The position numbers were made by a program, and so were the translations under genes. Positions 14,755 through 44,792 of a DNA stretch of 44,792 bases are shown in pieces (the stretch's first letter is position 1; each line of letters starts with the position of its first letter). A model generated the notes under the pieces. That model was not told where the DNA came from. It saw only the letters and a program-made list of their open reading frames with translations, and made no database searches. This stretch comes from a virus: positions 1 to 44,792 of IMG/VR virus record IMGVR_UViG_3300046558_000079. One strand, 5' to 3'.

Positions 14755-15337
14755 GAATAAAATTTCCTTTACCTTTAAAATGGTTCTCTACAATTTCTCT
14801 AACCTGCTGCTGCGTGTCTTCAATTTCGACATTGACGACTTCGTAATCACATTTTAAAGATTCCATAAGTTTTTCTGATTCATGGTTGTCGGTGTTGTAG
14901 AATTTCGGGCGTCTAACTCTGATCATAATGCCATCTCTTTCTCTGACAGCGTCTACTTCATCGGGGAAGCGAACATCACTCACCGCAACTAGGTCTAGGT
15001 CAGCCATTTTCCGTTCCCAACCACTGATCCAGAAGTTTTTCCCCATAATATTTCTGCCCCACTCCGTGCCAAGAGTTTGCATCGCGAAGCGGAATTCTTT
15101 ATTATTGAAATATCTACTCCTGTGATCCTTGTACCAGTCATCGGTATAGAGATCAGTATTTTCGACGCCATTATATTCGAGCCACGCCGTGAGCATTGAC
15201 TTCAATCCGCCAGCGAAAGGAACATCGACATAACCTAGGTCTGCCAAAGCTTCGGCGCATGTCCCTTTTCCTGAGCGTTTATAACCGCAAAAACCAACGA
15301 TGCGTTTATCAATGAATTTAAATTTCTTCTCTGCCAT
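14747..15337 (-). CDS. Deoxynucleoside monophosphate kinase (T4 gp1-like)
   Basis: A 196-residue P-loop kinase phosphorylating dNMPs to dNDPs. The Walker A motif is GYKRSGKGT (~18-26). The TLGTEWGRN block and the VSDVRFPDEVDAVRERDG block are characteristic of phage dNMP kinases related to T4 gene 1. It lies between the helicase (one-base stop/start overlap at 15337) and thyX (8-base overlap), so it would act on the product of ThyX and on nucleotides from host DNA breakdown. Confidence 0.88.
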   Translation of the reverse strand: MAEKKFKFIDKRIVGFCGYKRSGKGTCAEALADLGYVDVPFAGGLKSMLTAWLEYNGVENTDLYTDDWYKDHRSRYFNNKEFRFAMQTLGTEWGRNIMGKNFWISGWERKMADLDLVAVSDVRFPDEVDAVRERDGIMIRVRRPKFYNTDNHESEKLMESLKCDYEVVNVEIEDTQQQVREIVENHFKGKGNFIRD

Positions 15338-16671
15338 TAAATTACCACTGTTAATTTATCTGCGGCTCTTGTCACAGCTGTATATCGCCACTTGTCAATA
15401 TCATCCCTGAAAACATAACCTTCGTCATGCACCACGACATGGCTCCATTGCGATCCCTGACTTAGATGAGTCGTGATGCAATGGCCCCAATCGACGTGAT
15501 GCTGTTTTTTCTTCGCCTCAAACACTTCCTTCTTGTCGCCAGTGAAATATCCGGCTTGCCTTCCGTAATGTTCTTCGAACAGAGCTTGACAAACTGTGAT
15601 GTTTCTAACGACACCATCTTCATCCGTGGCATTCATATAGAATGTGGCACGGCCCTCAACCAATTCGTAATCTTTATTATTTGTTAGGAACATGCCATTG
15701 ACAAGTTCTTTAGCGACTCTTGAATTTTTACGAACGATGAGTGGTTCGCCAGCCATTGGACCAACGAGATCATAACCAGCTGCTTTGCGAATTTTCTTCG
15801 TAAGTTTCCAACGTGTGGCATTTGTACCACAAAGCACTTGGACTTCTTTGTCCATATCTAGTGTGTCTTCGTCATCTCTCTTACGAACAATATCAACAGT
15901 CTCGCCCCACGTTCCAACTTCCAGTTCACCACCTTCTCTGATATGTGTGGCTAATGCGATGATCGGATTATCTTTGGCCTGCCTGTGAATCTCAGTCAGG
16001 AATACATCAGGAGTGCCGATGCAAAATCCGGGATTATCTTTAACGGGCTGAAGCTGTCCCGGATCACCAATTGCTAGAATTGGAATACCAAAAGATTTTA
16101 AATCATCGCGAATCATCTCACCAACCATAGACGCTTCGTCCACAATGATGAGTGAAGCTTCGCGAATCGATCCTTCAGTATTGAGGTGCCAAGTCGGCCC
16201 ATCGGTCGAAATGTAAGCCTTGTCCAAATCTTCGTTTAAAAGTTTGAGGGTGCGCTGAGCATCTTTTAGATTGTACTTCTTGCCTTCAAAGAAAACATCT
16301 GGCGCGCTGAATTCAGCAGCTGAACTAAGTGCTTTACCAAGATCAGCGATTTTATATTCGAGCACTTCAGCCTTTAGAGCTTTGGGTCTATAGATCGCGG
16401 AATGAATCGTGCTAGGGATAATATCTACACCAGCGTCACGCAGTTTTTTGCCCGCCACCCGAGCAGCCTTCCCCGTAGGGGTGACAACAAAGACTTCGGT
16501 CGTGGTCAGGCCGCAAGCTTCAACAATAAAAGGGAGAATTGCTGTTTTACCTGAACCGGCATAACCGCCTAGATAGCAAGGCTTTGGCTCTTCTTCAGTT
16601 TGGGCTTTTTTAAACCATGCCACTACTTTTTTGACTGCGGCATTTTGGTGGTCAGTTAGGGTAATTGACAT
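15337..16671 (-). CDS. SF1 DNA helicase, Dda/RecD-like
   Basis: A 444-residue superfamily 1B (5'-3') helicase. Motif I is GGYAGSGKT (~34-42), motif II is VDEASM, motif III is GDPGQLQPV, the HRQ of motif IV is visible, and the C-terminal motifs TTHLSQGSQW and YTAVTRAADKL correspond to V and VI. The length and order match T4 Dda-type helicases, which drive replication initiation and fork restart. The start has a clear Shine-Dalgarno (AAGAAGGAG). Upstream are an intrinsic terminator and a structured element, so expression may be controlled by readthrough from the ssb-like gene. Confidence 0.9.
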   Translation of the reverse strand: MSITLTDHQNAAVKKVVAWFKKAQTEEEPKPCYLGGYAGSGKTAILPFIVEACGLTTTEVFVVTPTGKAARVAGKKLRDAGVDIIPSTIHSAIYRPKALKAEVLEYKIADLGKALSSAAEFSAPDVFFEGKKYNLKDAQRTLKLLNEDLDKAYISTDGPTWHLNTEGSIREASLIIVDEASMVGEMIRDDLKSFGIPILAIGDPGQLQPVKDNPGFCIGTPDVFLTEIHRQAKDNPIIALATHIREGGELEVGTWGETVDIVRKRDDEDTLDMDKEVQVLCGTNATRWKLTKKIRKAAGYDLVGPMAGEPLIVRKNSRVAKELVNGMFLTNNKDYELVEGRATFYMNATDEDGVVRNITVCQALFEEHYGRQAGYFTGDKKEVFEAKKKQHHVDWGHCITTHLSQGSQWSHVVVHDEGYVFRDDIDKWRYTAVTRAADKLTVVI

Positions 16672-16697
16672 AGCAATCTCCTTCTTAAGTCATAAAT

Positions 16698-16721
16698 AAA
16701 AGGGCTCAGAATAGCCCTTTT
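16698..16721 (-). terminator. Intrinsic terminator / attenuator between ssb-like gene and helicase
   Basis: A perfect 9-bp stem, AAAAGGGCT/AGCCCTTTT, has the 6-base loop CAGAAT (16707-16712); on the - strand it is followed by TTTTATTTATG. It lies between the ssb-like stop (16831) and the helicase start (16671). On the - strand RNA its 5' arm contains AAAGGG, which is complementary to CCCUUU at 16753-16748 in the element just upstream, so an anti-terminator pairing is possible. Confidence 0.85.
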
Positions 16722-16728
16722 ATTTTCA

Positions 16729-16805
16729 GAAGATTTGAAACACCTTGAAAGGGTTGCCGTTAGCGTCCCAACTCACTTAAGGTTGGATGACCGTTTCAAA
16801 TCTTC
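16729..16805 (-). ncRNA. Structured RNA element with a 13-bp closing stem (candidate cis-regulator or sRNA)
   Basis: On the - strand, 16805-16793 (starting GAAGATTTGAAAC) pairs perfectly over 13 bases with 16741-16729, enclosing 51 bases. Inside is a second perfect hairpin, CCAAC/GTTGG with a 9-base loop, then a single-stranded GACGCTAACGGCAACCC segment and a short ACC/GGT hairpin. The element ends 8 bases before an intrinsic terminator. This layout (closed aptamer-like domain, linker, terminator) is what a riboswitch-type attenuator or a processed 3'-UTR sRNA looks like. I could not assign a known class. Another inverted repeat, TTTCTAAG/CTTAGAAA (16813-16837), overlaps the ssb-like stop codon. 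Confidence 0.6.
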
Positions 16806-16830
16806 GACTAGATTTCTAAGCTTTTAAATC

Positions 16831-17622
16831 TTAGAAACGACGGCGACGACCACCGGTAGCAGCGGCTTCTTCGGCCTTCTTTTCTACTACCTTTTCTTCC
16901 TTGACTACTTCTTCATCTGCCTCGGATGAATCGCCTTCATCTTCGTCATAGTTAGAAGCGTCATTCTCGCCACCATACTTCTCTTCAAGCTCTGTTTCGC
17001 TGATCCAGCCAACGATAGTGAACTTCGGAGCGTATGCCTTTTCCTTCTTCTTCGCACCCTTCGGCGTGAATTCAGTGGCCTCGAACTTTACGATGGGAAG
17101 AAGTTCTTCGCCATTCTCAATGTTCTGACCCTTCTGAATCGCCTTACCGTAAGCCGCTAGGAGATTACCAAAGGCGCGAATACCAGACTTTGAGCTATTC
17201 TTCAGGAGGAGCTTTTCACCTTCAGCATCACCACCGCCTTCAAGTACAGCGACTTCGAAGCTGATCTGCTGCTGCCAACCATCATCGTCATCATCGTAAG
17301 GACCGTGATCCTCAAGCTGACCCTTTGGCGTCGGATTACCGTCGAGGATGCGAGTCATATCTTCGCCAACGACTTCAGAATCCTTCCAGCAAATATGGCC
17401 CTGCTTAGCAGAATTCATATTTACAGCGCCTTCCCAACCGTCATCAAGTTCGTCCTTTTCAGCACCGTAGGTATAATCGCCGGTCTTGCCGCTGAAACCA
17501 GCGAAAGTGAGGCCATCATTACCGCCACCGAGTGAGGACGCAGCGCTTAGGAACGGGTTGCCAGAGGCTGCACCAGCGTTAGCGACTGCATTGTTGTTAC
17601 GGGTTGTAAGTTCATTTGCCAT
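16831..17622 (-). CDS. Putative single-stranded DNA-binding protein
   Basis: A 263-residue acidic protein. The N-terminus (~1-35) is low-complexity. The core (~40-215) is a predicted beta-rich domain with aromatic/charged segments (DGWQQQISFEVAVLEGG, KKKEKAYAPKFTIVGWISE). The C-terminus is strongly acidic (NYDEDEGDSSEADEE), then Lys/Glu-rich, ending GGRRRRF with a terminal Phe. An acidic tail ending in an aromatic residue is typical of phage SSBs that recruit replication partners. It is encoded between the helicase and a Cas4-like nuclease, as expected for a replication protein. Its leader has the pseudoknot-plus-repeat layout of T4 gene 32, which supports the SSB reading. I do not see a classic bacterial SSB signature, so the function is inferred. 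Confidence 0.6.
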   Translation of the reverse strand: MANELTTRNNNAVANAGAASGNPFLSAASSLGGGNDGLTFAGFSGKTGDYTYGAEKDELDDGWEGAVNMNSAKQGHICWKDSEVVGEDMTRILDGNPTPKGQLEDHGPYDDDDDGWQQQISFEVAVLEGGGDAEGEKLLLKNSSKSGIRAFGNLLAAYGKAIQKGQNIENGEELLPIVKFEATEFTPKGAKKKEKAYAPKFTIVGWISETELEEKYGGENDASNYDEDEGDSSEADEEVVKEEKVVEKKAEEAAATGGRRRRF

Positions 17623-23868: not shown

Positions 23869-24069
23869 TTACGCCATATCCTCATAATAGAGGGTATAAT
23901 ATTTTCCGCAAACATCACACTTGTAACGCTCGCTCTCCATCCCACCACCATTCTCATAAAGATTTGGACACTGAGACCAAGTTCCGAAGTGAGGGTTGTG
24001 GTGGGATGGAGTGAACACAGGTTTACATTCTGATGGTTGCTTTGTCGGATCGCCGTCATAATCAGCCAT
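23869..24069 (-). CDS. Small zinc-ribbon-like protein
   Basis: A 66-residue protein with Cys at ~15 and ~34 and a CDVCG knuckle (~51-54), plus a His pair (SHHNPH). This looks like a small zinc-binding fold. It follows the HTH/phosphoesterase gene by 5 bases and ends base-to-base against the convergent gene at 23868. The function is unknown; nucleic-acid binding is possible. Confidence 0.65.
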   Translation of the reverse strand: MADYDGDPTKQPSECKPVFTPSHHNPHFGTWSQCPNLYENGGGMESERYKCDVCGKYYTLYYEDMA

Positions 24070-25734: not shown

Positions 25735-26493
25735 TTAATTTTCTTTAATCCTCTTCATCATTTCAGCGCCGTTTGATCTAACGATTCTGTAACGCCCTGT
25801 TCTATTTATGATTTTCGCTACATGGCCAAAAAGTTCGTATTCGCGCGAACTAGGCACAACAATTTCTTCTTTATAAAAATAAACACCCAGCATTGCGTCA
25901 TCGCCGTAGGCGTGCCAAACATTGATATCGCGTTCTTTCAGCATGGCTTTAATTTGCTGAACACTGACACCGTTTAACTGCTTCTGGCTCCACAACGATT
26001 GAGCGACTTGCTGATACGCGTTTGTGGCGCAATCAATGAACCTGAACCTCTTGCTATCTGTCGCGACATTCTCTGGTCCGCCATAGACACGGCAGTCAAA
26101 ACCATTATAGTTTGTGACCTTATATCCTTGAATTAATTTATAAAATTCTGTGGAACAGTAGCTTGCCATCAGAGTTGCGAGCTTCACGACGCGACCTGAG
26201 TGTGGATGCTCGACCCAACCAGTTCCGTTACGGTTCTGGCGAGGGTGCCAGATCAAAGTTATTTCATCGCTTTGGGTATAACTTTCAGTCGCGCCGAAAC
26301 GTTCCATCAACAGCTTTGTCACATCTGCCATTGTCTCACGTAGCGTAGCGTCGAATGGGCGAGTCAGCCCCTTGGTGAAGTTGTGAAACCCATGCCCATC
26401 CAATCGAGCCACCATGTATTGGTCAGCCGGGATATAAGTTTCGACGCTATCTTCCAGCGTTTTTAAATAATCAAACTCTGCTAAATTTTTCAT
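25735..26493 (-). CDS. Thg1-like 3'-5' RNA polymerase (tRNA-His guanylyltransferase family)
   Basis: A 252-residue member of the Thg1 family, which adds nucleotides to tRNA 5' ends in the 3'-to-5' direction. The first metal-binding motif is ARLDGHGFHNFTKGL (Asp ~30) and the second is YTQSDEITLIW, both diagnostic of the family. The FDCRVYGGPENVATD block also fits. Bacterial and phage relatives (Thg1-like proteins) repair 5'-truncated tRNAs rather than adding G-1. GAGG lies 6 bases before the ATG, and the gene overlaps the end of the BCS1-like gene by 23 bases, so the two are co-translated. Together with RNA ligases, kinase and RlaP further right, it suggests tRNA repair. Confidence 0.9.
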   Translation of the reverse strand: MKNLAEFDYLKTLEDSVETYIPADQYMVARLDGHGFHNFTKGLTRPFDATLRETMADVTKLLMERFGATESYTQSDEITLIWHPRQNRNGTGWVEHPHSGRVVKLATLMASYCSTEFYKLIQGYKVTNYNGFDCRVYGGPENVATDSKRFRFIDCATNAYQQVAQSLWSQKQLNGVSVQQIKAMLKERDINVWHAYGDDAMLGVYFYKEEIVVPSSREYELFGHVAKIINRTGRYRIVRSNGAEMMKRIKEN

Positions 26494-30239: not shown

Positions 30240-30528
30240 TAAGATACTCCCTTAAGTCATTGGGGAAGTGTGTAACGAGTGGATCAAACTCTTCGCCAGC
30301 CACGAATTTGTGACCCACGAGGTAGCAATAACCGTACCTACCGTCAGTGCCGTCTAGTGAAACAACGGCACGGCGTTTCTTATCTTCACTGGTCCACTCG
30401 TAAATGATTTCTAAATAATCTTCGTCCCACCAAACATCTGGTTGCCATTTTAGGTCAACCAGATGTTTTTCGAAGTGATATCGTTCCACGTCTAAAGGCG
30501 TATCTAAATTATCCACTAATGGCACCAT
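30211..30528 (-). CDS. Hypothetical protein
   Basis: A 105-residue acidic, aromatic-rich protein (WQPDVWWDEDYLEIIYEWTS). No family is recognised. It overlaps the RlaP-like gene by 13 bases, so it is probably translated with it, and it overlaps the following 51-codon gene by 29 bases. Confidence 0.7.
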   Translation of the reverse strand: MVPLVDNLDTPLDVERYHFEKHLVDLKWQPDVWWDEDYLEIIYEWTSEDKKRRAVVSLDGTDGRYGYCYLVGHKFVAGEEFDPLVTHFPNDLREYLNDSVRPAGT

Positions 30529-31535
30529 TCCGCTTTGTGAAGACCATAATCTTCTGTGATCCTATCGAGGTGGAGATCATGAACAATTTCGTCCATAAAT
30601 TTAACGTCCACTTCAGGTGGCAAATCAGATACTAACATTAATTTTTCCAATTTGTCAAGATTATCTTCTAACATTGAAGCGATTTCTTTATAAGGATGCT
30701 CCCCTCTTTTGATTGTTAGAAGTTCAGCAGCGTTGTGACGCGGAAACGTAATCGTATTGAACTGAAGTAACTCCATGGCCTGCTCAGAGACCCGTATAGC
30801 GTGATACAGCGCTTTCCAGTCCACACCCTCATTCTGTTCAGCCATGAGAGCCCTAGAGCCATACTCATCGAAGCTGCGCTTGTAGATCGCGTGAGCCTCT
30901 TTCAGAGCAATGGTGTAGCCCACCTTGCGGTTAATCGCTTCAAAGTATTCCACAGTTTCCGTTGAACCTTTGGCCACAGGCATTTCAACAAACTGAGAAT
31001 GCTCATTGACTACGATGAAGCGCTCAAGCTCTTCATGGAACATCGGAACGTCTTTGATTTTGGTGTTAGCGCCATAGCTCGCGACCCAAAATGAAAACAG
31101 GTCCATCGCGTTACGAGAAGTTGCTACACGCGATCCGCGTATACCATATTTTGCGGCCTGCGTTTTCACATATCCTACGAAACCTTTAATATCTCGTGAT
31201 ACCAGTCTGTGTTTATTTGGCAGGATAATATCTCTCCACTCAGACGACATAACAATTGCTTTTTCAACCGGAACGTGTAACAATTCTTGGGCAACCATGT
31301 CGCCCTTTTTCAGCATGTCGAAGAACTTCAGGAGTGAAAAACTTTCGTCATCGATGTCATCCACAGTGTTTTTTGTCTTATCACTGCCTGTGCTGTTGGA
31401 GATGACACGTGCCGTGTCCTGCATCACGAGATCACGACCAGCCGGGATATGCACTCCCTTATAGTCAGTATCACTTGTTGGAGTTTTCGTGCCGTACAAA
31501 TCGCTGCCAAAACTAACTTTAAATAATTGTTTCAT
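30516..31535 (-). CDS. RlaP-like nucleotidyltransferase
   Basis: A 339-residue member of the DNA polymerase beta nucleotidyltransferase superfamily. The N-terminal motif FGSDLYGTKTPTSDTDYKGV (G-S...S-D-x-D) is the nucleotide- and metal-binding signature of the RlaP (RNA ligase-associated, PF10127) family. The remaining ~270 residues are mostly helical, as in that family. RlaP proteins are found beside RNA ligases in predicted RNA-repair systems. Here two RNA ligases, a 5'-kinase and a Thg1-like protein are encoded on the same strand, which fits that role. The target and added nucleotide are unknown. Confidence 0.82.
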   Translation of the reverse strand: MKQLFKVSFGSDLYGTKTPTSDTDYKGVHIPAGRDLVMQDTARVISNSTGSDKTKNTVDDIDDESFSLLKFFDMLKKGDMVAQELLHVPVEKAIVMSSEWRDIILPNKHRLVSRDIKGFVGYVKTQAAKYGIRGSRVATSRNAMDLFSFWVASYGANTKIKDVPMFHEELERFIVVNEHSQFVEMPVAKGSTETVEYFEAINRKVGYTIALKEAHAIYKRSFDEYGSRALMAEQNEGVDWKALYHAIRVSEQAMELLQFNTITFPRHNAAELLTIKRGEHPYKEIASMLEDNLDKLEKLMLVSDLPPEVDVKFMDEIVHDLHLDRITEDYGLHKAEWCH

Positions 31536-37312: not shown

Positions 37313-37787
37313 TCTTGTTGCTCCAAGAAATGGGCGTCGTGTCAAGCAGTTCCCATGTCGAAAGCTTGTTATCTGCAAATGCAGCAATCGCCGCATCCCG
37401 AGTTAGATACACACCATCGTCAAAGAAAATGTCATTGAAATCTGTGTCGCGAATCACGTTGATGAAGCCAGAGGTTTCCAAGACCTTAACAAAGCCATCA
37501 TCCTCAATATCTTCTAGGCATTCGAATAGCGAGATAGAGTTGTCGCTAAACTTAGCAACGATCTGACCAAACTCCGAAACATAAATTACTTCGATTTCAC
37601 CGGCTAGGGTGTCGTAGAATCGATCACCGACAACGACTTCACCACTATCAGGAGTGGTCGGAGCGCCAGCCACAGGAGCTTCTGCCCCGCTTAAGTCATA
37701 AGAAATGTTATAAAAATCGCTTCCGTGGACTTGACTCAATGATTCAAGATCGAAAACTACGTAATCATTAAAAGACTCGTTAGACAT
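37305..37787 (-). CDS. Hypothetical acidic protein
   Basis: A 160-residue acidic protein, beta-rich in the centre (GDRFYDTLAGEIEVIYVSEF) with a flexible Pro/Gly/Ala linker (APVAGAPTTPDSG) before it. No family is recognised. It shares its start base with the stop of the RNA ligase (37787), so it is co-translated. Confidence 0.68.
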   Translation of the reverse strand: MSNESFNDYVVFDLESLSQVHGSDFYNISYDLSGAEAPVAGAPTTPDSGEVVVGDRFYDTLAGEIEVIYVSEFGQIVAKFSDNSISLFECLEDIEDDGFVKVLETSGFINVIRDTDFNDIFFDDGVYLTRDAAIAAFADNKLSTWELLDTTPISWSNKND

Positions 37788-38836
37788 TACAAATTCCTCT
37801 CAGTTGCGAGGATATACCAATCTCTCGCTTGTTGATTTACTGCTTTAGAAACGTTCTTCCAATCAAGGCCAGAAGCTTCCAACTCATTCACAGATTCTTT
37901 CTGCACGTCTTGGCCGATCCACTTCATGAATGCGCCCATATTCTTCATCACAGCTTCCCCGCCGCAAGCCTCAGTCACGCCTTGTTCGCAACGGCCTTGA
38001 GTGACAAACTCCTTGGCAAAAGCCGCTGAGCCTTCTAGCACGGCTGGATCGATTTGAATCGAAACCTTCTTCTCAGAGGAAGAGACGTGATGGCTCTCAC
38101 CCTTAGCCTTGAAAAGAAAATCGCTGTAAACATCGAAGTCTAAAGAATCAATTGGATCAAGAGGCACAAAAACATAACCCTCACCAATGCCTTCAATTCC
38201 GTATCGATCTTTAATGTAAGGATCGACTTTGTCACAAGCTTCGACCAAAGAAGTCACTTCCTTGGTGAAACGCTCCATAGAGCTTTGCAGCCTGAAATCT
38301 ACGACAAATTCTTCCGTTCCCCAAGGGATTGTCTCAAAGACATTGTGCTTGTTAAAGACGTAATCAATTCCGCTCTTATCCAGCATCACATAATTACTTC
38401 TGTCACTTCCGCTAGGAATTCTAGGCTCGCCGGGAAGAGCTTCTAACATAACAGCGTGAGGAAGATGCGCAGCGAACACAAAGAAAGTCTTCTTGGCAAT
38501 TTGAGATACAGCCACTTTCTTTTGAATACCGGGACCGGCCCATTCACCATAAAGGATGTAGGTCCAAGGATAAACAATAAGTTTATCTTTTACAGTCTCC
38601 ACCCAATTAGCGAATCCTGCATTATCGTTCTCGACGTTGCAAACCCCGGTTCTTTTGAAGCAAGTCACTGTCCCATCTGGATCGACTCTGATCCCGGCGT
38701 TCGTGCCATGAAGTTTTACCTTGCCACGGTACAACACCTTTGGTCGATTGTCAAGTTCGAATCGACGCTTGACCGTGGCATTCACACTTGAAAACGCTTC
38801 GATAGAAGGGAATTTAATAAATTTTCCTGTCGTCAT
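37787..38836 (-). CDS. RNA ligase, T4 Rnl2-like
   Basis: A 349-residue RNA ligase of the Rnl2 family, sealing 3'-OH to 5'-phosphate ends via a lysyl-AMP intermediate. Motif I is KVKLHGTNAG (Lys41, counted from the ATG at 38836). Motif III is ILYGEWAGPG, motif IV is GIGEGYVFVP, and motif V is FLFKAKGESH. Length and motif order match T4 Rnl2 (334 residues). I chose 38836 because the ligase domain begins there; the frame is open to 38899. Downstream, ~90 residues form a helical C-terminal domain. It lies beside a HAD phosphatase and near a 5'-kinase, giving a split end-healing and sealing set. Confidence 0.9.
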   Translation of the reverse strand: MTTGKFIKFPSIEAFSSVNATVKRRFELDNRPKVLYRGKVKLHGTNAGIRVDPDGTVTCFKRTGVCNVENDNAGFANWVETVKDKLIVYPWTYILYGEWAGPGIQKKVAVSQIAKKTFFVFAAHLPHAVMLEALPGEPRIPSGSDRSNYVMLDKSGIDYVFNKHNVFETIPWGTEEFVVDFRLQSSMERFTKEVTSLVEACDKVDPYIKDRYGIEGIGEGYVFVPLDPIDSLDFDVYSDFLFKAKGESHHVSSSEKKVSIQIDPAVLEGSAAFAKEFVTQGRCEQGVTEACGGEAVMKNMGAFMKWIGQDVQKESVNELEASGLDWKNVSKAVNQQARDWYILATERNL

Positions 38837-39299
38837 TTTGGGATAAACTTTCAATAACTTTACGCATATCAGCCTCACCCTTCTTTCTGAAAAGTTCACC
38901 GGATTGTCGTACTAATAAATTTTTAATATATTCGGAACTATCTTCGAAACTTAATTGATAGGTATCGATCTGATAATAACTTCGAAGCGGCTCAGCACTC
39001 AAACTAATGCGAGTGATGGGGCGTTGGTCGGCAATTTCTTGCTGCCTAAACGAATATTTGTAGTCCGGGAACGGGACGTAACGCGGACCCTTATTAAATT
39101 GAAACTCTTCTAACTCGGCTAAATTTCTGGTGGTCTCGTAAAGTTCGAAACTTTTAATAGTGTACTTTTCTTCTAGGTATTCGTATCTGTGCCGTGGCAC
39201 AAAAGGCCAAATAATATTGATTGCTTTATTTAGGCCCGTTGCCAACCAGATGCCGAACGGTGTGACTGTCTCCGGGTCCGTTTTGAATATCTTGATCAT
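38814..39299 (-). CDS. Hypothetical protein
   Basis: A protein of about 161 residues from the ATG at 39299; in-frame ATGs at 39317 and 39341 and a TTG at 39356 are alternatives, and all overlap the HAD gene. The N-terminus has a moderately hydrophobic stretch (PFGIWLATGLNKAINIIWPF), then a helical region (YEYLEEKYTIKSFELYETTR) and a charged C-terminus. No family is recognised. It overlaps the RNA ligase start by about 23 bases. Confidence 0.58.
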   Translation of the reverse strand: MIKIFKTDPETVTPFGIWLATGLNKAINIIWPFVPRHRYEYLEEKYTIKSFELYETTRNLAELEEFQFNKGPRYVPFPDYKYSFRQQEIADQRPITRISLSAEPLRSYYQIDTYQLSFEDSSEYIKNLLVRQSGELFRKKGEADMRKVIESLSQNDDRKIY

Positions 39300-43699: not shown

Positions 43700-43917
43700 T
43701 GGCATACTTCCCCGTCAGGGGCTTCAGCCATATAGCCTTCGGAGGCACTAACAACCCTGCCGTCACAAAGCTTAACAAAAGTCACGTTAAAGTTTTTTGT
43801 AATGACATAGCCAAAAAGCGTCTCAGTGTCACCTCTGACATAAACAAAATCACCTTCATCTATTCCACAAGACGTTAGACCTAACGCCATCACCCCAATG
43901 ATTATAAACTTTTTCAC
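43696..43917 (-). CDS. Small lipoprotein, paralogue of the previous gene
   Basis: A 73-residue lipoprotein with a GTG start at 43917 that overlaps the Rnl1-like stop (GTGA); a second GTG at 43920 is possible. The signal peptide ends in LTSC (Cys17 counted from 43917). The mature part has FVYVRGDTET, FVKLCDGRVV and a terminal VCQ. It is a tandem paralogue of the neighbouring lipoprotein, from duplication inside the phage. Confidence 0.8.
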   Translation of the reverse strand: MKKFIIIGVMALGLTSCGIDEGDFVYVRGDTETLFGYVITKNFNVTFVKLCDGRVVSASEGYMAEAPDGEVCQ

Positions 43918-44792
43918 CACTCACATCCTTTCAAGATTAAGGGTTTGACTCGTTCAAATTTCTGCTCAGATTCACACGCCTCTCGGAGCCGATTCATGAT
44001 TTCATCTTCCATCTCATCCAATGGAAAATCTCTGTCCCACAGATGGAAAATGATTGACTTGATCAAAGGAGGCGCTTTTGAATTAATGGCGAAGTCCTTA
44101 CGCGGGAGCTTCACTTTCAGAATGGCATTAACTTCATGAAACAAGGTTCGGCAAAGTTCTGTGATGTTCTGGTTTAACTGAATCTCGTAAGCCTCGGCCT
44201 TAGTCAAATCTTCGGCTAGCATGAATGGCTTTAGGTCGTCTAATTGACCAGCGAGCAGTATAGCAACGAAATGTCTTTCACGCTGAATCTTATCCTTGGT
44301 CCTATGGAGATTGATGTAGTCTTGCGTTTTTACCTTGACCATGTGGCCGTCGCTGAACCGAAGGACTTCACCTTCAGTCATTTCATCGGACTTCAGTTCG
44401 TAGATGAAATTAACATATTCTTCCATGGAATGAAGAGGAGCTTCGTTTTTGCTCACAACTTCTATTCCATATTCTTTTACCGCATCATAGACAACCATTT
44501 CGTCATAGGTCATGTACCAACCGTCCAAGGTGTGGCGAACAGCGGTAAGCACAAGTCTATCTACTGGATAGTCCACGACAATTCTATTCAAACGACTACA
44601 CCATTCAAAAATAGGAGTAAAACCGTCGTCCATAGCTTCGTTGCAAAATTCAATAATTTCCTGATAATGATTAGCGACTAACCAATTCTCGGTTTGCATT
44701 GAGGTATCAGTAATCCCCATTTTGGTGGCCCAACGTTGGGCACCTCTGATCCTCAACGGATGAACCATAGACCCATCAAGCTTTTCCAAACG
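43914..44792 (-). CDS. RNA ligase, T4 Rnl1-like (5' end cut by window edge)
   Basis: About 291 C-terminal residues of a T4 Rnl1-type RNA ligase. The TTG at the window edge is internal, since the nucleotidyl motif follows at once. Motif I is KLDGSM (Lys3 of the fragment), motif III is PIFEWCSRLNRIVVDYP, motif IV is EGEVLRFSDG, and motif V is VKVKTQDYINLH, which is diagnostic of Rnl1. The remaining ~110 residues match the Rnl1 helical C-terminal domain. T4 Rnl1 reseals anticodon-cleaved tRNA-Lys. It differs in family from the Rnl2-like ligase at 37787. It is directly upstream of the two lipoproteins. Confidence 0.88.
   Translation of the reverse strand, partial: RLEKLDGSMVHPLRIRGAQRWATKMGITDTSMQTENWLVANHYQEIIEFCNEAMDDGFTPIFEWCSRLNRIVVDYPVDRLVLTAVRHTLDGWYMTYDEMVVYDAVKEYGIEVVSKNEAPLHSMEEYVNFIYELKSDEMTEGEVLRFSDGHMVKVKTQDYINLHRTKDKIQRERHFVAILLAGQLDDLKPFMLAEDLTKAEAYEIQLNQNITELCRTLFHEVNAILKVKLPRKDFAINSKAPPLIKSIIFHLWDRDFPLDEMEDEIMNRLREACESEQKFERVKPLILKGCEW

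Follow-up and report, generated by a model that had tools for sequence, protein, structure and literature searches.

A candidate new family of small structured phage RNA with a conserved core and a freely varying closing stem

Introduction

What might a compact, strongly paired RNA lying between two phage genes do, and does it control the genes that follow it? The window analysed here is a virus record of 44,792 bases, which carries on its minus strand (16729-16805) a structured RNA element between a gene for a 263-aa protein (16831-17622) and a helicase gene (15337-16671). A sequence-only reading had proposed a riboswitch or protein-binding attenuator governing the helicase, dNMP kinase and thyX genes or, failing that, a stable 3′-derived small RNA. 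The closest proteins to the DNA-transfer, helicase and 263-aa proteins of the window come from large alphaproteobacterial phages (among them Lacusarx, CcrBL10 and Cp1R7A-A1) and from Microcystis phage Mwe-JY26.

The element and its flanks

The features of the locus are as follows, in the order of transcription.

16831..17622, minus strand: upstream gene, 263 aa, PHROG 9528, with an acidic tail whose last residues are GGRRRRF; only its position makes it ssb-like.
16812..16838, minus strand: hairpin that takes in the upstream stop codon (fold; also in the sister contig L019).
16793..16805, minus strand: P1, 5′ strand of the 13-bp closing stem, GAAGATTTGAAAC (sequence, perfect pairing and eight two-sided pair changes).
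16742..16792, minus strand: 51-nt core, GGUCAUCCAAC..GUUGGGACGCUAACGGCAACCCUUUCAAGGU (conserved: 43/51 identical in phage Phosso, 50/51 in L019).
16729..16741, minus strand: P1, 3′ strand, GTTTCAAATCTTC, perfectly complementary to the 5′ strand (same basis).
16694..16725, minus strand: intrinsic terminator with a 13-bp stem (counting A-U pairs), a 6-nt loop and a T-rich tail ending UUUUAUUUAU (fold; relatives also have a hairpin after this gene).
15337..16671, minus strand: downstream Dda/RecD-like helicase, 444 aa (family and domain matches).

Genes for a dNMP kinase and thymidylate synthase also lie downstream of the element. The perfect stem and the core that it encloses are both present as first described, and perfect 13-bp inverted repeats with a loop of up to 80 nt are expected by chance at a rate of 0.025 per resampled window (first-order Markov resampling of the whole window, n = 40). 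At -52.1 kcal/mol, the fold of the full 156-nt stretch has a z-score of -5.96 against shuffles, and the element with its flanks alone gives -4.26. The element almost certainly exists as a structured RNA.

The intrinsic terminator that had been placed after the element is present, starting 3 nt past P1, and the element lies in what would be the 3′ end of an mRNA in the window; the terminator is palindromic and could act on the plus strand too. The inverted repeat over the upstream stop codon also stands and is kept in L019. The minus strand of the upstream gene showed no sigma-70-like promoter, which fits release of the element from a longer transcript.

The assignment of the upstream gene as ssb could not be confirmed: PHROG 9528 (‘nucleotidyltransferase’) is the sole family that it matches, searches of Pfam and PDB gave nothing and the AlphaFold model of the protein (mean pLDDT 39.8) is too poor to use. 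This PHROG label is common to large Caulobacter phages in the form ‘polyribonucleotide nucleotidyltransferase’, a name that looks doubtful for the 263-aa gene.

Two other repeats were seen elsewhere in the window. The one at 23935-24011 (14 bp, 49-nt loop) has a geometry like that of the element and an unrelated sequence, is absent from L019 and sits inside a minus-strand ORF (23869-24069) for a 66-aa Cys-containing (CDVCGKYY) product; the other, at 30432-30468, is a perfect 13-bp hairpin with an 11-nt loop (AAACATCTGGTTG...CAACCAGATGTTT).

Distribution of the element

A BLASTN search of 50,697 phage records with the element gave a single significant match, in which the core aligned (E = 4e-7) to the Sinorhizobium jumbo phage Phosso (PV764938, 469 kb), an isolate that infects Sinorhizobium meliloti; one additional match was at chance level (E = 5). 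The sister phage contig L019, the sole carrier found in IMG/VR, has the element at the same place. The exact 17-mer GACGCTAACGGCAACCC occurs at 66 loci in IMG/VR, among which L019 is the sole homologue as judged by flanks and many others are a protein-coding reading (DANGNP). Six more viral pattern scans yielded zero further homologues, and a scan of genome contigs with a pattern that was too loose gave, among the matches listed, none with stem and core together. A covariance-model search of genomes sharing a class, family or phylum with a Rhizobium genome (overlapping samples of 385, 394 and 398 genomes; 1190 genomes and records overall) returned two weak matches of 25-29 bits, both of them inside protein-coding frames. 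The element was found neither in fifteen other phage records (including Atu_ph07, Lacusarx and Caulobacter phages) nor in plasmids; search depth was uneven between the sequence collections.

Comparison of the window with a 10-kb Phosso locus showed a DNA match restricted to the element, which is therefore present in unrelated genomes without conserved neighbours. Among closer relatives, contig L200 has a homologue of the upstream gene (65% identical) followed by a hairpin and no element, and the same holds after this gene in the GenBank records of Mwe-JY26, Cp1R7A-A1, Lacusarx and CcrBL10. Since these relatives have the hairpin and lack the element, the hairpin after the gene probably came first and the RNA was added later.

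An addition of this kind could be a selfish or mobile sequence lodging in intergenic gaps. Its patchy occurrence would suit such an origin, as would a LAGLIDADG-type ORF that in L200 (3883-4938) lies between the terminator following the gene and the helicase, at the site taken by the element in the window and L019. Against this, there is a single copy per genome, the ends are not shared (P1 differs between carriers) and no target duplication was noticed, which makes a mobile sequence highly improbable.

Conservation and secondary structure

Three homologous sequences (window, L019 and Phosso) were compared, two of them from sister phages. The window and Phosso cores are identical at 43 of 51 positions, with eight substitutions and a 2-nt insertion in Phosso, all confined to the P2 loop, the P2 closing pair and the P3 region. 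P1 behaves in the opposite way: only eight of 20 bases are shared between the two, and yet pairing is complete, the stem having been rebuilt by compensatory changes. Random placements in the Phosso locus gave ten consecutive pairs at the P1 spacing in 94 of 1,000,000 trials. We modelled the whole as a four-way junction in which P1 encloses three further helices.

16765..16791, minus strand: P2 arm (junction model and three-copy comparison).
16789-16791 with 16765-16767, minus strand: P2 pairs GUC/GAC, invariant and unproven.
16787-16788, minus strand: AU bulge of P2.
16782-16786 with 16768-16772, minus strand: P2 pairs CCAAC/GUUGG, whose loop-closing C-G is U-A in Phosso.
16773-16781, minus strand: 9-nt loop of P2.
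16756..16764, minus strand: P3, GC/GC (16763-16764 with 16756-16757), pairs invariant, model only.
16743..16752, minus strand: P4, hairpin CCU(UUCA)AGG adjoining P1, pairs invariant, model only.

In this model all 72 of 72 cells are paired and nine pairs are changed on both sides across the three homologues, eight of them in P1 and one the compensated P2 closing pair; the loop of P3 is variable, being 2 nt longer in Phosso. None of 500 shuffles was as good, and no slid or shuffled control approached the model. RNAfold gives a minimum-energy structure with an identical P1 and a different inner fold, a preference that counts against the junction; this inner fold loses pairs in Phosso (97.3% of cells paired) and has zero two-sided changes outside P1. 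The helix-preserving changes expected of a new structured RNA family are thus found in P1 and the P2 closing pair, which are backed by covariation, while the remainder of the junction, including P3 and P4, is a model.

A short reading frame that runs across the element (GTG/ATG AGT TGG GAC GCT AAC GGC AAC CCT ..., 16-17 codons in the window and L019) was considered as a leader peptide and rejected because the Phosso copy has no start codon and the 2-nt insertion shifts the frame.

Comparison with known RNA families

A cmscan search against Rfam found no match at the gathering score and nothing relevant at E values up to 10, in agreement with the earlier failure to place the element in a known class. 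The glutamine-II (Downstream-peptide) riboswitch (RF01704) was considered and rejected: the Phosso copy aligns over the full length of the model, loosely resembling CGuUCAyCC...GGgCGCA, at a score of 10.8 bits where the cut-off is 33 (E = 0.79), and the window and L019 copies were unmatched at E values up to 10. Glutamine-II riboswitches belong to the 5′ UTRs of genes for short peptides or nitrogen metabolism, whereas the element has neither downstream, its neighbours being the helicase in the window and tRNA-Arg in Phosso. The succession of GGCAACC and GGUG in the 3′ half presumably recalls the SAM-I/SAM-IV clan, a lead only; membership of that clan was likewise rejected, since no SAM family was matched at E values up to 10 in any of the three copies, and the element has no counterpart of J3/4 or P4 of that clan and no adjoining methionine or SAM gene.

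Other likenesses are of context. RNA C and RNA D of phage T4 are unexplained stable RNAs of a phage tRNA cluster, and the element resembles them as a small structured non-tRNA among phage tRNA genes that is likely to be matured with them, although it also occurs outside tRNA clusters. Bacterial small RNAs derived from 3′ UTRs end at intrinsic terminators, and the window copy likewise has a stop codon before it and a terminator after it; the Phosso context is otherwise, and a fixed core within a four-way junction is atypical of a base-pairing small RNA.

Compact multi-helix junctions with an invariant core and a stem of free sequence are a usual plan of ribozymes. The element follows this plan, with helices closing round a conserved core, and might therefore cleave itself; no Rfam ribozyme family was matched, however, and no known cleavage motif was recognized by eye, so that we regard a self-cleaving ribozyme as very unlikely.

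RNA motifs are a known kind of phage feature: cyanophages carry the metabolite-type motifs manA and wcaG (PMC2864571), and phage S-CREM1 has a riboswitch and other RNA genes (PMC9964418). With respect to Rfam 15, the family described here is new.

Riboswitch or attenuator

Control of the downstream genes would require a core, bound by a ligand or protein, whose CCCUUU opens the terminator by pairing with AAAGGG in its arm, allowing read-through into the helicase, dNMP kinase and thyX genes. The arrangement in the window is suggestive in that the terminator lies 3 nt beyond P1 and the gap ahead of the helicase is too short for a promoter, CCCUUU and AAAGGG are indeed complementary both here and in L019, and candidate phage riboswitches are known (manA and wcaG; PMC2864571). 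The complementarity behind the proposed pair of exclusive folds is therefore real, but the alternative fold itself is strongly disfavoured: over the full stretch the antiterminator reaches -29.6 kcal/mol against -52.1, 22.5 kcal/mol worse, and in an RNA ending at the 5′ arm of the terminator, before the 3′ arm exists, it is still 8.9 kcal/mol worse (-29.6 against -38.5).

Nor is the putative aptamer kept together with an expression platform. Phosso retains the core including CCCUUUCAAGG, and thus the CCCUUU, with neither an AAAGGG arm nor an intrinsic terminator between the element and tRNA-Arg, and the five relatives with a hairpin after the upstream gene do without the element. Given these observations, the cost of the antiterminator and the lack of any riboswitch match in Rfam, a riboswitch or attenuator role is unlikely.

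Context in Phosso and proposed role

In Phosso the element occupies a 77-nt spacer between tRNA-Val and tRNA-Arg, the first base of P1 following directly on the CCA of tRNA-Val and its last base lying 4 nt before tRNA-Arg. With these boundaries, maturation of the tRNA ends alone would release the element as an RNA of about 77 nt. Directly upstream of this group, on the opposite strand, is a T5orf172/MUG113 ORF (L001, 4566-4856, minus strand).

The window encodes an RNA-repair set (25735-26493, 30516-31535, 37787-38899 and 43914-44789, all on the minus strand) made up of a Thg1-like tRNA-His guanylyltransferase, an RlaP-like nucleotidyltransferase and two RNA ligases, with no tRNA gene in the fragment. 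Phosso encodes a T4 Rnl1-type RNA ligase, but searches there for RlaP and Thg1 gave no match; a tie between the element and RNA-repair genes was accordingly rejected for want of a consistent partner.

Both in the window and in Phosso the element sits just past a mature 3′ end and, we infer, is transcribed as part of a longer RNA, which would be the tail of an mRNA ahead of a terminator in the former and a tRNA array in the latter. The element would then probably be excised by ordinary RNA processing and, once released, work in trans, where its likeliest function would be to bind or mimic a protein or host RNA. The lack of a common neighbouring gene favours action in trans, and a fixed core beneath a free stem is most simply explained by an RNA to which a protein or host RNA binds. 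We put the probability that the element represents a new, rare family of small structured phage RNA acting in this way at roughly 55%; among the earlier proposals, that of a stable 3′-derived small RNA fits best.

The main rival is a role in cis: the tight junction and closing stem would either stop exonucleases or flag a site for cutting, and so shield the 3′ end of the upstream mRNA or hold the two tRNAs apart. Such an element would leave the same signs, and its position directly after a mature 3′ end in both contexts (a stop codon in the window, the tRNA CCA in Phosso) is what would be expected of it. However, 43 of 51 core bases are fixed across unrelated phages, a constraint beyond what roadblocks or spacers ordinarily call for; in relatives the hairpin alone suffices, and no further tRNA spacer of the Phosso locus fits the model. 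A cis-acting stability or processing element is thus conceivable, if rather doubtful.

Little is known about the small structured RNAs of phages, and Phosso, growing on S. meliloti, offers a directly testable carrier. The fixed core and free closing stem of the proposed trans-acting RNA point to a specific partner, and the fact that two unrelated phages carry this RNA suggests that it is worth acquiring. More tentatively, the element may stand for a new class of phage RNA with a biochemical activity of its own, as a decoy or inhibitor of a host enzyme or defence protein or as a ribozyme, that is made in tRNA arrays and mRNA tails and passed between unrelated alphaproteobacterial phages.
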